This document shows, piece by piece, positions 3,599 through 47,168 of a DNA stretch of 64,000 nt. Made by a program: the position numbers and the translations under genes. The stretch lies in contig BCJJ01000023.1 of NCBI GenBank assembly GCA_039545355.1, positions 497,362-561,361 on the forward strand. Reading direction: 5' to 3'. This DNA comes from Trichosporon coremiiforme. Lineage: Eukaryota; Basidiomycota; Tremellomycetes; Trichosporonales; Trichosporonaceae. Each line of letters starts with the position of its first letter. The first letter of the stretch is position 1. A model generated the notes under the pieces. It worked only from the letters and a program-made list of their open reading frames with translations. It ran no database searches and was not told where the DNA came from.

Positions 3599-6002
3599 AT
3601 GTCTCAGCCTCCCACGATAGAGACGTCGGGCGTCAAGAACGACCGCTTCGAGGCTGAGCTCAGCCGCCTCGATGCCCCGGAACCGCCCAAAGAGGACAAC
3701 GTGCACTTCTGTCTGCTCGCCGAGTTCGACATTGATGCGGGTGCGACGCTGTCCCATCAGTACCCCTACCCGACCGGGACGGATGAGCAGTGAGTGGAAA
3801 GGAGCTAAGCTTGGGGCTTGCGTTCGGGTTACGTACGACGCTAACGTGTGCAGTGCGTTGGCTGAGCTCATGCTTCCCGATGGCGCGCACATGCGAGGAG
3901 AGGACTGGACCGTGTTCTACCTGGGCCAGTCGCCGCAGATCTCTGTCGCACCGATGTTAACGCACGAGTCGGACACGGTGGACAAGGCGCGGCTGGCGAA
4001 CAAGCGGGCGAGCATGTTCCCGTCAAACGAGCGGCCACGGAGAGGGGCACCCGGCGGAGGGCTGCTGTACGTCCTGAACTGTGTGCGCATGAAGGAAGAC
4101 AAGACGGTGCGCCGTGGTGCGATGGTGAAGGCGCTCGCGATTGCGACACCACACCCGTACATCGGCATCTTCAAGCCGCTCCTCCTACTCGCCCTGGAGG
4201 AGTACTTCAAGAACCCTAGCTTTGACATTCTGGCGCGGCTATACGACTCGGCCAATAACATCTCCCTGGTCGGCATGCCCAAACTCACTCGCTCCGAGCT
4301 GATCCTACTCCGCCAAACGGACCGCAAGGACTTGCTCGAGACGCGCTTCGTCGAGGCGAAGGAGGCGGTGAACGCGTACTCAGCGATCGACGACGCCTCC
4401 ACGCACGAAGGCTCGACTGGCGACCATGAGCGGAAAGGAAGCGTCAGCAGCTCTGTCCGGCCACCGATCGGCCGCAAGGGCTCGTCAGCCTCGAGCTCGT
4501 ACCCGGGCGGCGGCAGTGATCTCCTGCCGGCGGACAAGCGCCGCGGGCTGCCGCGGGACACGCACTTTTTCGAAACGGAGGCGCGTTTCAGGCAGATCAC
4601 GGTGCCAATCCGCGTCCCGATGACCGTGTTCGACGAGGACGTCGGCGACTACACGATCATCGAGCTCGTGCAGACGTTTGGGCAGAATTTCACGACGTTC
4701 CCGGGCCCGTACTTCCCGTGGCTGCACACGAACGGCGCGCACACGCATCCGATCATGCTCATCTTCAACGCGATCCTGTGCCACAAGCGCGTCATGTTCC
4801 TCGGCCACGGCCTGCCGGCGAACCACGTCGCGCGCATGGTCCTCGCGGCCTGCGCCATGGTGACGGGCAGCGGGCAGATCCTGCGTGGCGTCACTGAAAC
4901 GGCGTTCCCCTATACGAATCTGGCGAGTCTCGAAGTTTTGGAGCAGTTTGACGGGTTCGTCGCGGGCACATGCAACCCGCGGTTTGAGGAGCTGCCGCAG
5001 ACGTGGGACGTCCTGTGCAACCTCGAGACGGGCAAGGTGACTGTGTCGAAGGAGCTGCGCGGCCTGGGCGGGGACGACAGCATCCCGTCTACGCTATCGC
5101 GGGGCGAGACGCAGGATGTCATGAACAGCAAGCAGCTGCAGAGCCTGACGAAGGACTGCATCGACAACCAGTTCATGGAGGAGATCATGTCGGCGACGAC
5201 GCAGCACTACGGCGAGGGGCACATCCGCACGCGCTTCACCGACTACATCTCGCGCTTCGTCCGTCTCGCCGCGTACCAAGAGTACGTGATTTTCGGAAGC
5301 ACCAACATTGGCTGGATCTATCAGCCGTTCCGGGAGGGCCAGCTGGGGAGCGGCATCGTCTATATCGACGACGCACTGCGGCAGCGCGAGCTGAAGGAGA
5401 ACCACTACCGGATCGACGCGTGGCGGCGGACGAAATCGTACCGTCTCGCGCAGAAGGACTGGGTGCGCGAGGAACAGACGGCGGCGATCAGGGGCTTTGA
5501 CGCTCTGCACAATGTGAAGCGTTTGCGCATGACGCGCACAATGACGTCTCAGGAGGCCAGCCTCATCTTCTCCACCTTCGTTCGGAGCATCAGGACATAC
5601 GACCAGGTCGTCGAGCTCCTAACCTATCTGCCAATGCACTTCGGCGGTCTGATCCCGATCGCGAACGGGCTCTTCCACCCTATCAGCAAGATTCGCGCCG
5701 ACGCGCTAGAGCTCCTCTGCATCATCCAGCAGTACCCCGTCGGCGTGCAGGCGCTCCAAGGCCTCAACTACTTCCACCGCAAGACCTTCATCGAGCTCCT
5801 CGAGCGGCGCGAGGCGCAGCGCGTCCTGAACTTTCGCTTGACGGAGGAGCGCAAGGTCCAGGAGGAGGTGAGGGACAATGCGGCCGTGACGGCTCCGGCA
5901 GCAAACAGGCTCGAGATCCGCACAGATGACAACGGCACTGTACGCAGGGGCGAGCTGCAGGCCGCGCTTAACAAGGCGGCGGCGGCGGCGCAGGCGGCGT
6001 AA
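3599..6002 (+). CDS. AFI1: AFI1/MesA-type DENN-related polarity protein
   Basis: Two exons, 3599-3789 and 3854-6002, give about 779 aa. The intron is confirmed by GTGAGT, CTAAC and CAG with phase kept. The N-terminal region (about 35-200) fits the Afi1 docking domain (VHFCLLAEFDIDAGATLSHQ, LYVLNCVRMKEDKTVRRGA). A Ser-rich linker (about 235-290) follows, then a SPA (stabilisation of polarity axis) segment at about 320-520 with HPIMLIFNAILCHKRVMFLG. Known members bind the Arf3 GTPase and anchor polarity at the bud tip or hyphal apex; that role is inferred by family. The C-terminus is helical and Ala-rich. An in-frame TTG lies nine bases upstream; the ATG at 3599 is the chosen start. Confidence 0.85.
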
Positions 6003-6726
6003 GCGCAGCGAGCAGCGCGGATGCCGATGGCCGTAGCGCATGGCGAGCGAACGTGGCTTCCCAGATCACCTGCCGTCCTCTCTTACGTGCGGCGAGCTTT
6101 GCAGGTGGACAGCCCGCCGTCCCCAACGACATATCCAGTCCCACGATAGAGTGAATCTGTACACTCCCACCCCCTACACAGATAGCACAGATACTACGAA
6201 CTCATACATGGTTTTTTACACATCTTCTCAACATACACAATGGTCGATAAATAGATTGTAGTCTTGGCTTTATAATGATGGCTCCTACTGTTTTTGGTTT
6301 CTTATGAATTACGCCTAGCTGATAGCTTGTTTGATGGGTTGCGATGATGGGTTGCGAGAGTGTAGATGAGGAGGATGGTCGCCTGAGAGAGAACGATTGA
6401 CAGGTGTAGCAGCTGGAGAGCCAGAGCCTCGTCCTGCCACATGCGTTCCTGACGCGTACGCGCTGGTAAATTTGGCAGGCAGAGAAAGCGTCAGTCCACT
6501 GAATCAATGGCCGTGTGCAACTCGCAGCCCATACTCGTACAAAGCATTCATAGGACGGCTATCTAGGATACACAACATCGTCAGTGACCTGTGGGTTAGA
6601 AAACGCACATAGCGACCGAGGCATGGGGGCTACTCGGCGCCGTCCTGAACGGTCCAGCAGCGCCGGAACCGCCAGATTGGGTTGGTGTATATCCAGATAC
6701 ATGCGTGCCGGTCCTAGTTGAGGTGC
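6003..6726. other. Convergent intergenic region
   Basis: This 3'-3' spacer between the AFI1-like gene and RPS13 is AT-richer than the genes around it. An open frame of about 100 codons on the minus strand (6202-6507) has no domain and no splice support. No RNA gene is recognised. Confidence 0.5.
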
Positions 6727-7296
6727 TTAGGCGACGAGGGTCGAGGCAGTGGCGGCCTCGTACTTGAAGGTAGGAGGGAGCTGCTGCTTCTTGATGTAGT
6801 AGCGGGCAAGACGGTGGATACGCGACTCAATGAGAATCATGCGGAACTTGGCGTCCTTGTCACCGCGGTTGCGCTCGAGGTGCTTGCGAACCGAGACGGC
6901 CTTCTTGACGAGGTGGTAAAGGTCCTCAGGGATGGTGGGGGCAAGGCCTGGATCGTCAGCTGGGATCTAGTCGTCTTAGCTGCAGGGAAGGCAATTTTTG
7001 CGCCAAGTCTTTCTCGACGTTTCAGGTCGCAAAAGTTCACCTTCCCTCACACTCTACTCACCGTTGCTCTTGAGGATACGGAGGATCTTGTTGCCGGTGA
7101 CGGTCTTGACCTGGGGGATACCCTGCGAGTCACGGAGGACAACACCGATCTGCGAGGGCGAGAGACCGCGACGGGCGAGCTTGAAGATCTGGTCGGCGAC
7201 CTCCTCGGGGGTGGTCTTGAGCCACGAGGGAGGAGCGCGCGAGTAGGGGAGCGCGGAGGCAGAGATGCCCTTGCCCTTCGAGTACATGCGGCCCAT
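6727..7296 (-). CDS. RPS13: 40S ribosomal protein S13 (uS15)
   Basis: Two exons (7062-7296 and 6727-6947) make exactly 151 aa, the usual length of eukaryotic S13. The N-terminus [20 protein letters not shown], the [20 protein letters not shown] segment and the C-terminal [20 protein letters not shown] are diagnostic. The protein binds 18S rRNA in the body of the small subunit. The 114-nt intron has donor GTGAGT, branch CTGAC and acceptor CAG, and splits a Gly codon. It lies head-to-head with RPS6, so the two small-subunit genes probably share control elements. Confidence 0.97.
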
Positions 7297-44145: not shown

Positions 44146-44454
44146 ATGACCTTCTCCCCCGAGATCGTGTCCCACGCGACGACTCACATGAACGAGGACC
44201 ACGCCGACGGCAACCTGTACATCGTCCGCGCGTTCGCCGACGAGGGCGCCAAGTCAGCAACCATGACCTCTCTCGACGGTACCTCGGGCACTTGGTCGTA
44301 CGTCGGAGCCGATGGGTCGACGAAGGAGGCGACCGTACCCTGGCCCGCTGGCCCGATCTCCGAGCGCATGCAGATCCGCGTCCAGGTCGTGTCGCTGTAC
44401 AAGACGGCTTGTGCCAAGCTCGGGGTGAACGTGAAGACTCACCCGGAAAACTAA
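44146..44454 (+). CDS. DUF2470 domain protein
   Basis: A single exon encodes 102 aa that are almost entirely one DUF2470 domain. It begins IVSHATTHMNEDHADGNLYI, the conserved H-MN-DH pattern, and ends in a helix with RMQIRVQVVSLYKTACAK. In haem-binding HugZ-type and plant proteins the same domain sits at the C-terminus of a flavin-split-barrel. Here it stands alone. The His residues suggest a ligand or haem role; function is unknown. Confidence 0.85.
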   Translation: MTFSPEIVSHATTHMNEDHADGNLYIVRAFADEGAKSATMTSLDGTSGTWSYVGADGSTKEATVPWPAGPISERMQIRVQVVSLYKTACAKLGVNVKTHPEN

Positions 44455-44778: not shown

Positions 44779-47168
44779 TCAGTCCATACTGTCCAAGCTA
44801 TCGTCAGACTCAGACCGCTCGTCCTCGTTGACGTTGGGCTGCGGCTCGTCTCCGCTCTCCTCTCTCTCCTGCTGCTCCTCCACTCTCGCGCGCGTCTCCC
44901 GCTCATTCTGCCTCGCAATAACACCCCGTTGCGTCTTCACGTTCCCTGCGACTTTAACGGGTCGGCCGTCAGGCGTCTTCTCTGGCGCGAGATCGATACG
45001 GATCCGCTCGATCGCGGCCCAGATGCGTTTGTCCCATTCGAGCCATTCTGCGAGTGCCTTGATGTTAGCTAGAGTCTCACAATGGGAAAACGGCAGGTGC
45101 GCTTGAGCTCTTCGGAGCACTCTCGTTACGCTCGAGACTGGAACGCTCTCGCTGCGCTTGAGCCAACTCACCTCCTCCGCGCCGTCTCGTAATGTCGCCT
45201 CGGTCTCCCACGTATCCTGCTCTGGTGGCCATCCCTTCCACCGAACTCTGAACATCTTGCCCCGTTTCGCAACCACACGCTCAATCTCGTAGACGTCCTC
45301 GCCCTGCTCGCTGATCGCGCCATCGAGCGTGTCCTCCTCGGCGGTGGCCCACGGCGCCTCGCTCGAGTTGCCGACGTGCTTCTCCTCGGCGGCCCAGGCG
45401 GCATGGCTGCAGGTCTCCGTAACTTCCGGATCGTAGCGAGGCATCGGCAGGTCCGCAAACGACTTGAGTTTTGGTTTGCCTTTCCGCCGCCCCTCGCCCA
45501 GGTACGCGTTGACGTACCTGTGCGCCCAGCAGAGTGCGTTCTCGACGTCGAGGACGCGCATACCAGGGCGCAGGCCGTTCTCCCACTCGTGCGGCGGGTC
45601 CTGCCCCAGACGCGCGTAGTACTTGAACTGCTGCTCCGTGAGCCATTTCAGGCCTGCGTCCTCCATTTCCGCGTTCTCGATGCAGGGGCCAAAGATGCGC
45701 CTCAAGTAATTCCTGGACCCAGGACCGCAAGTCGCAAAGTCGCGATACAGCCAGGTGAAATTCGACGTGTCGTTCAGGAAGCAGAGAATGTTGAGGGACA
45801 GAAACCCGCCCAGTGTCGGGATCGTTTGGAGGACGTTGGACGCGTCGACGGCGAACCGGCACGACTTCAGCTGCGAAGGCAGGCCGCACTCCATCATTGC
45901 CATCACGAGCCGGAGCGACGCGGCAAAGTTGTATATGTTCTTGTCCCGGTTCCGGTTCAACGCTGGGTCGAAGTAGATTGTCGGCGGCACTAATTGGAAT
46001 CCGCCGAGGTAGATCTTCTTCTTCTGCTTGATACAGAGGTCGTGTAAAGCCTTCTCCATCGCGGGCAAGTCCTGTTCAAACGTCTTCCAAGACGGCACGC
46101 CGCCCGTGGCTGCATCGCAGACCGCAGCCCACGAGTCGGCGTTGTAAAACTGGCAGTAGAGAAATACGCGGATTGCCGTCAGCTCCTGGTCGACAGCCCA
46201 CAGCTACACGAGGCAAACTCACAGCACACCTCATCCACGGTCTGGTCGCCGTCGGCGATGATTTTGTCCCGCATCATGAGACTGCTCGGGTCCAGCTGCC
46301 GAAACACATTCCCGATGTGCACAGCGCTCATGGTCGGGTCCGTCGTGAGCTGGTCGCGCCGCACGCCAGCCTGACGGCGGTAGTACATCTCGTGCCGCTC
46401 CGCGCAGAAGCGGTAGAAGAGGTACACCCAGTGGTTGTCCACGACTACTGGGAGAGGCTTCTCGAACCCCTGCACATGCAGTTGCGAGTTCTCGTACTTG
46501 CGCGAATCGACTAGGCCGTCGGCGTGCGGCTCGGGCGTCGGCTCGCCGACGATGGTGGCTTCGGCTTCGGCTTCGTCACCCGAGTCGACGACTATGGCGG
46601 CGGACCCGGCGGGCTCCTCGTACGCCGACTCCGAATCGACTGTGACGGGAGCAACCTTGCGCTTCTTGGACGAAGAGGGAGTCGCGTTACTCTTTGAGGA
46701 CTTTGGTGTCACCTTTGGTGTCTGGGACGATCGCGACGTCCTCACTGCTCTCGTGGGACGCGGGGTCGTCTGCGGCGTAGACTGCACGGGTGTCCGCGTC
46801 GTTCGTGTCCGTTTCGGCGGCAGAGGGCTCTCGGGCTCACTCTCAGCTCCAAGACCTGCCTCGACGTCGACGTCGTCCTCGTCCATCGCCTCTTCCAGAC
46901 CTTCTTTGTTCTCCTCCTCATCCGACTCGTCGTCGTCATCTGCGGACTCATCGGTGATCTCGACCATGAGGGCATAGTTGACGGCCGGCCGGTGTCTTCC
47001 ACTCGTCCGCCTCGGTTCCTGATTCACTTCCACTGCGGCTTGTAGACTGCTCCGTCGCCTGTCCGTGTACTTGCGCTTCACCTCGGGCGAAGCGACCTTC
47101 CGGCGGGGCAGCTCAACCTCGAGCTTGAGCTTGACGGGGCTCTGCTCTGCTCTCCGTTTTGTGCGCAT
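44779..47168 (-). CDS. Chromodomain protein with 5-hmdU-DNA-kinase-type helical domain (HMUDK_hel / thymine pyrophosphorylase-like)
   Basis: Exons 46230-47168, 45172-46185 and 44779-45057 give 743 aa. Residues 1-235 are a disordered acidic/basic tail. Residues about 241-530 match the helical domain named for phage 5-hydroxymethyl-dU DNA kinases and the alpha-glutamyl/putrescinyl-thymine pyrophosphorylases. The family pattern runs in order: FYRFCAERHEMYYRRQAG, HIGNVFRQLD, IRVFLYCQFYN, TLGGFLSLNILCFLNDTSNF, GPGSRNYLRRIF, LKWLTEQQFKYYARLG. A chromodomain follows (about 608-651: DVYEIERVVAKRGKMFRVRW, then KGWPPEQDTWE), with Tyr, Trp and Trp at methyl-lysine cage positions. The family is predicted to act on modified bases in DNA; the fusion points to a chromatin-directed base modification or repair role. 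The second intron (114 nt) is in-frame and open, so a retained form is possible. Substrate unknown. Confidence 0.85.

Follow-up and report, generated by a model that had tools for sequence, protein, structure and literature searches.

A chromodomain joined to a PF18723 helical domain with altered family-invariant residues in Trichosporon coremiiforme

Introduction

A 64,000-nucleotide stretch of Trichosporon coremiiforme DNA (contig BCJJ01000023.1, positions 497,362 to 561,361; hereafter the window) contains a minus-strand gene that raises an unusual question: what would a domain with relatives in the thymine-modification systems of phages and bacteria do on the same chain as a chromodomain in a basidiomycete? 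An earlier note, made from the sequence alone, had placed this gene at 44779..47168, which proved right, and had read its product as a 5-hydroxymethyldeoxyuridine (5-hmdU) DNA kinase or thymine-pyrophosphorylase aimed at heterochromatin. We found that the fusion is carried by two copies in the genome, and that both have replaced residues invariant among prokaryotic relatives. The explanation we favour, held with about even confidence, is a chromodomain-tethered protein that recognises or inspects DNA or modified bases in heterochromatin, with its catalysis lost or much altered.

Gene structure and domain architecture

The predicted product runs from the ATG at 47168 to the stop at 44779 in three exons and has 742 aa; the 743 aa given earlier correspond to 743 codons including the stop. 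In a Pfam hidden Markov model (HMM) search, HMUDK_hel (PF18723) was matched by both the exon-1 open reading frame (ORF) (E=1.6e-13, 51.1 bits, profile 2-68 of 281) and the exon-2 ORF (E=2.6e-43, 148.9 bits, profile 70-274 of 281). Both pieces exceed the curated Pfam cut-off of 25 and together cover most of the profile, which places the protein in the family and confirms the helical domain predicted at residues about 241-530. The exon-2 ORF also matched Chromo (E=3.4e-9, 36.9 bits, against a Pfam cut-off of 25.1), in agreement with the chromodomain predicted at residues about 608-651. Scanned alone, exon 2 gave HMUDK_hel (1.6e-43) and Chromo (4.3e-9), with roughly three quarters of HMUDK_hel present. 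Because this single exon carries most of HMUDK_hel plus the chromodomain, both domains belong to one chain, as had been proposed; two separate genes or transcripts are excluded by this arrangement and by the identical exon layout of the second copy.

The family relation was also recovered with an HMM built from 78 prokaryote and phage relatives only, which matched the spliced chain at residues 248-540 (E=7.5e-35, 116.7 bits) and listed neither the reversed chain nor any of 1000 shuffles at E<=10. Profile-profile comparison of the fungal pair with the prokaryotes gave a probability of 99.9% (E=4e-34, 325 columns). A chance match is excluded by the Pfam scores and by the shuffled and reversed controls. 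Since the Pfam model scores the two fungal pieces above the prokaryote-only HMM, it likely holds fungal-like sequences already, which suggests that fungal PF18723 proteins as such are probably not new. The parts of the gene are as follows:

46230..47168, minus strand, exon 1: residues 1-313, a charged low-complexity N-tail (about 1-224) and the start of HMUDK_hel (Pfam residues 246-313), from ORF and splice comparison
46183..46229, minus strand, intron 1: 47 nt (44 nt possible), with a GTGTGC donor common to the homeolog, where the intron is 45 nt
45172..46182, minus strand, exon 2: residues 314-650, the remaining HMUDK_hel, linker and chromodomain in a single open frame
45058..45171, minus strand, intron 2: 114 nt (61 nt in the homeolog)
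44779..45057, minus strand, exon 3: residues 651-742, conserved at first, just past the chromodomain, and ending in a divergent charged tail
46230..46433, minus strand, exon-1 portion of HMUDK_hel: Pfam profile 2-68 of 281
45505..46170, minus strand, exon-2 portion of HMUDK_hel: Pfam profile 72-274 of 281, exon scanned alone

The homeolog guided the choice of a candidate 3' splice site for intron 1; further in-frame joins are possible, the 44-nt one adding one Glu. Exon 3 matched no Pfam family at E<=10.

A second copy and purifying selection

The genome (42.0 Mb in 134 contigs) yielded a single further PF18723 gene, located on contig C11. The window aligns with C11 (671000-734314) over 54.2 of 64 kb in collinear order at 80.4% identity, occupying 5500-64000 on the window side; the comparison covered C11:671000-740999, with the first 5.5 kb of the window outside it. 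Because so much of the window aligns in order, the gene can be assigned, on collinearity, to a duplicated, hybrid-like (homeologous) genome segment. A study of the Trichosporonaceae describes four hybrids with a mean genome size of 40.5 Mb and puts the largest genome of the family at 42.4 Mb (PMC7026411); the window may come from such a hybrid yeast.

Exon layout is identical in the window gene and its homeolog. Between the two copies, the helical domain (residues 225-570) is 91.6% identical, with a synonymous divergence (dS) of 0.83 and a nonsynonymous-to-synonymous ratio (omega) of 0.065; the chromodomain (residues 606-660) is 92.7% identical, with dS of 0.75 and omega of 0.042. Faster evolution is seen in the tails, with omega of 0.28 and 0.25. 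Both domains are thus under strong purifying selection, the low omega excludes a decaying gene, and both copies appear functional. A small plus-strand gene adjoins the fusion gene at 44146-44454 of the window and begins MTFSPEIVSHATTHMNEDHADG; the homeolog has the same neighbour.

Residues retained and lost in the helical domain

Residue counts are based on 78 prokaryote and phage sequences plus the fungal pair, the 78 having been obtained from 128 by thinning at 75% identity. Before thinning, two fragments were dropped, as were 10 of 16 loci in one locus set, and one of 12 plasmid regions, a split Acinetobacter one, was excluded from the alignment. In that region (plasmid NZ_CP113934), the PF18723-type gene is annotated as two adjacent ORFs (5968-6920 of the fetched region).

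Thirteen columns are identical in all 78 relatives. The fungal pair retains eight of them (R258, N287, R290, D293, F440, G466, G468 and C531) and both copies alter the other five (F285I, A374G, D448F, E532W and K535R), so that two of the three invariant acids are replaced. The prokaryotic signature that we defined from these columns (the Asp of D-x-x-Y, the Glu and Lys of C-E-x-x-K-Y and 10 more) is therefore incomplete in the fungal proteins. A C-E-x-x-K motif followed by Y, F or W was present in 114/114 ORFs taken from the loci. At a further position, the pair has N398 where 73/78 relatives have Lys. The positions concerned are:

46290..46310, minus strand, kept motif N287-x-x-R290-x-x-D293: invariant in 78/78 relatives
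45778..45780, minus strand, F448 codon: in place of an Asp invariant in 78/78 relatives
45517..45528, minus strand, W532...R535 codons: where C-E-x-x-K-Y has its invariant Glu and Lys

The segment LDVENALCWAHRYV had been flagged in the earlier note as lacking expected acids, with the caution that activity may differ. That doubt was well placed: the residue after the Cys is Glu in 78/78 relatives and Trp here, and the lost invariant residues support the caution on activity.

The combination of D448F and Y451D resembles an i/i+3 swap. In residues 526-536 (45514-45546), the fungal V-E-N-x-x-C-W is nearer to the V-E-T-x-x-C(-W) of phage amino acid:DNA transferases (ADDTs) than to the PF18723 consensus, a likeness of VENALCW to the VETxxC motifs that may be due to chance. 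In the tree, the fungal pair sits on a long stem (6.91 changes per column), with bootstrap support not settled and its exact placement unsure.

The chromodomain and chromatin genes of the genome

Among PDB structures, the chromodomain matched MPP8 best (E=1.5e-8), followed by CDYL and CBX7, with HP1 lower. The three aromatics that had been named as cage residues align with F, W and Y of MPP8, at positions that we take to be those of the aromatic cage.

45175..45282, minus strand, Pfam core of the chromodomain: residues 614-649
45229..45291, minus strand, aromatic cage residues Y611, W628 and W631: from the MPP8 alignment

The genome also encodes two copies of a C-5 cytosine-type DNA_methylase gene with a Chromo hit about 0.7 kb before the DNA_methylase hit, on C9 (1188262-1189632, ORFs scanned) and C10 (1136396-1137760), presumably DNMT5-like, and a pair of Pre-SET genes that we assume to be of the Clr4 type. 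This gene content would fit a genome with H3K9 methylation and with cytosine methylation linked to chromodomains. Heterochromatin targeting by the chromodomain of the fusion protein is plausible. Searches of the genome for Tet_JBP, PF18748 and ADDT were negative, and no control genome gave a match either, which leaves their absence unproven; the PF18748 profile itself works in phage records.

Other matches were seen in the genome. A DNA_methylase match at C1:61157-62119 contains three in-frame TGA codons, through introns or decay. Chromo-like matches at C5:888300-888452 (ORF scanned) and C17:832133-832285 lie beside ABC-transporter ATPase domains and presumably belong to ordinary eEF3-like genes.

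Phage relatives, the kinase label and the predicted fold

In two phages, PF18723 and the P-loop kinase family PF18748 are found on different genes. Salmonella phage Vi01 has PF18748 in Vi01_061c (note orf00067) and PF18723 in Vi01_130c (note orf00160). Sphaerotilus phage SN1, which is close to M6, has PF18723 in SN1_020, annotated as aGPT-Pplase clade 1 (PMC9476957); the adjoining SN1_021 is annotated as a P-loop nucleotide kinase and matches PF18748, and SN1_024 is an ADDT (aGPT-Pplase clade 2). In phage LuckyBarnes, PF18723 (gp38) adjoins thymidylate synthase and two glycosyltransferases. PhiW-14 carries PF18723 (gp72), and its DNA contains putrescinyl-thymine (PMC5977210). In a pelagiphage study, aGPT-Pplase1 is described near thymidylate synthase (PMC9599517). 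The PF18748 profile gave matches in two of four phage records (Vi01 and SN1) and none in those of PhiW-14 or Vibrio phage D506; the latter has a gene annotated as guanylate kinase nearby, so another kinase could serve there.

By these gene contexts, PF18723 travels with thymine hypermodification but differs from the P-loop kinase, because Vi01 and SN1 encode PF18748 separately; PF18723 may be a partner of a kinase. Pfam scans listed no P-loop family for the window chain (E<=1) or for five PF18723 members (one bacterial, four phage). The Pfam name "5-hmdU DNA kinase, helical domain" is misleading, and it is probably the origin of the label "nucleotide kinase domain-containing protein" given to bacterial PF18723 proteins on plasmid records.

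The predicted folds of the fungal and bacterial members both resemble DNA glycosylases, with AlkA and OGG1 among the matches of either model; the nearest solved fold to the bacterial model is a DNA glycinyltransferase, and ROS1 is also among its matches. The domain may share the fold of the helix-hairpin-helix DNA glycosylase superfamily. No profile similarity was detected between PF18723 or the fungal pair and ADDT (PF18724): hhalign gave a probability of 0.03% when the fungal pair was compared with 30 ADDTs (one from a phage, the others from 29 of 46 loci), and scans of exons 2 and 3 brought up no ADDT profile at E<=10. A PF18723-ADDT link by sequence profile thus failed with the 30-row alignment as it had with an earlier two-sequence one.

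Bacterial relatives and their gene neighbourhoods

Relatives were sampled from prokaryotes, phages, plasmids and viral contigs. A tblastn search with the fungal domain recovered 14 plasmid records (21-28% identity), 13 of which had a coverage of 80% or more; the exon-2/3 ORF gave weaker matches in 61 phage records, none covering 80%. The best local alignments in the sampled set were with bacterial members (actinobacteria, cyanobacteria and rhizobia) at about 25-29% identity. A contig search of genomes with the fungal ORF as query found no relative, and a genome-contig scan gave at least 556.

Neighbourhoods were counted around the best 80 of these, with 6-kb flanks where available. About 61 of the 80 loci are actinobacterial, 24 are under 11 kb with cut flanks, and the loci are mutually related, so that counts are not independent. 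A thymidylate-synthase-like gene occurred near PF18723 in 65 loci, a MazG-type pyrophosphohydrolase in 62 and ImmA/IrrE in 57, with at least one of the three in 72. The synthase-like count comes mainly from a Nostoc protein called thymidylate synthase by PGAP (62/80), which has no Pfam hit at E<=0.01 and matches the NCBIfam thymidylate synthase only below cut-off; the Sinorhizobium (PF00303) and SN1 synthase queries matched in 8/80 loci each. Queries for dCTP deaminase and dTMP kinase matched in one locus each, and those for dnaE, dnaQ and the SN1/Vi01 P-loop kinase or ADDT in none of the 80. From gene content, the recurrent set looks like an uncharacterised nucleotide- or DNA-modification island. 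A 5-hydroxymethyluracil kinase domain and thymidylate synthase are listed among validated anti-phage defence domains in a 2026 paper (PMC13092281); the former may be PF18723.

Comparison with known systems

The phage members of aGPT-Pplase clade 1 (Vi01_130c, SN1_020, LuckyBarnes gp38 and PhiW-14 gp72) share homology with the fungal proteins along the domain, with N-x-x-R-x-x-D, GPG and the Cys kept. The fungal copies differ in lacking the invariant D and the E and K of CExxKY, in their long branch, and in the added chromodomain and charged N-tail. Bacterial PF18723 proteins likewise have the D, E and K, and the one bacterial member scanned gave no chromodomain hit. The phage ADDTs (such as the 5-PmdU glycinyltransferase 8z2m) differ by the lack of profile similarity described above. 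Chromodomain-guided DNA methyltransferases of the DNMT5/CMT type also combine a chromodomain with a DNA-acting domain, but one of another family.

A literature search, with key papers outside its reach, found no published description of a chromodomain-PF18723 fusion and no report of lost invariant acids in a chromodomain-bearing member. In the abstract of a 2013 paper, Iyer et al. reportedly note systems of this kind in basidiomycetes, and that paper may already describe the fusion.

Discussion

In the explanation we favour, the HP1/MPP8-type chromodomain would tether the PF18723 domain to nucleosomes in the nucleus, most likely those with methylated H3K9. The PF18723 domain would derive from the phage and bacterial thymine-hypermodification world, and its glycosylase-like fold would contact or inspect bases without the usual chemistry of the clade. 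A binding module or an altered chemistry is suggested because D448, E532 and K535 are replaced in both copies while the rest is conserved under strong selection. Two features weigh against a loss of catalysis: Y451D might stand in for D448, and E527 falls at the position of the Glu invariant in ADDTs (30/30), a Glu also present in 16/78 relatives.

An active enzyme for base modification or base transfer, with its active site rearranged and its chromodomain directing it to heterochromatin as in chromodomain-bearing DNA methyltransferases, is possible but on the unlikely side. The purifying selection, the kept N-R-D motif, GPG and Cys, the placement of E527 and a C-W pair as in some ADDTs would all suit such an enzyme, as would the glycinyltransferase-like fold predicted for the bacterial member and the thymidylate gene sets of the relatives. 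It has to accommodate the change of two invariant acids and the Lys, the lack of profile similarity to ADDT, and the failure to find an ADDT or PF18748 partner in the genome, a search that had no positive control genome. A DNA glycosylase removing altered or methylated bases from heterochromatin appears improbable; it would agree with the glycosylase-like fold of both models and with the cytosine-methylase domains that adjoin chromodomains in this genome.

The earlier reading, in which a 5-hmdU DNA kinase or thymine-pyrophosphorylase would act on modified heterochromatic thymine, is very improbable, and as a kinase the protein is unlikely: the Pfam name and homology, the kinase domain of the validated defence system and a phage kinase reported to phosphorylate 5-hmdU (PMC6457204 and PMC6449724) speak for it, but the P-loop kinase has a gene of its own in Vi01 and SN1 and is unmatched in the stretches around the 80 bacterial loci, no P-loop family is listed for the window protein, the genome searches for Tet_JBP, PF18748 and ADDT were negative within the limit given above, and family-invariant acids are lost. 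The assignment to an altered-thymine family stands in so far as the relatives lie in phage and bacterial thymine-modification gene sets; the 5-hmdU function cannot be carried over because two family-invariant acids and the Lys are replaced in both copies.

A more speculative proposal, which we consider rather doubtful, is that a phage or bacterial hypermodification domain was captured and built into a fungal heterochromatin system, in which the chromodomain would read methylated H3 and the glycosylase-fold domain would read, write or remove a non-canonical base or 5-methylcytosine. If true, this would give heterochromatin a second DNA-level layer, in addition to the cytosine methylase that is linked to a chromodomain in this genome.

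Cytosine methylation is the main case in which histone marks are known to be linked to DNA bases. For the family, the analysis flags the kinase label of PF18723 as misleading, the kinase being separate in two phages with a P-loop hmdU kinase and the predicted fold being glycosylase- or glycinyltransferase-like. For the fungus, strong selection has preserved the fusion in the two halves of a hybrid-like genome, so that the use of a second DNA-level heterochromatin layer by some fungi becomes testable.
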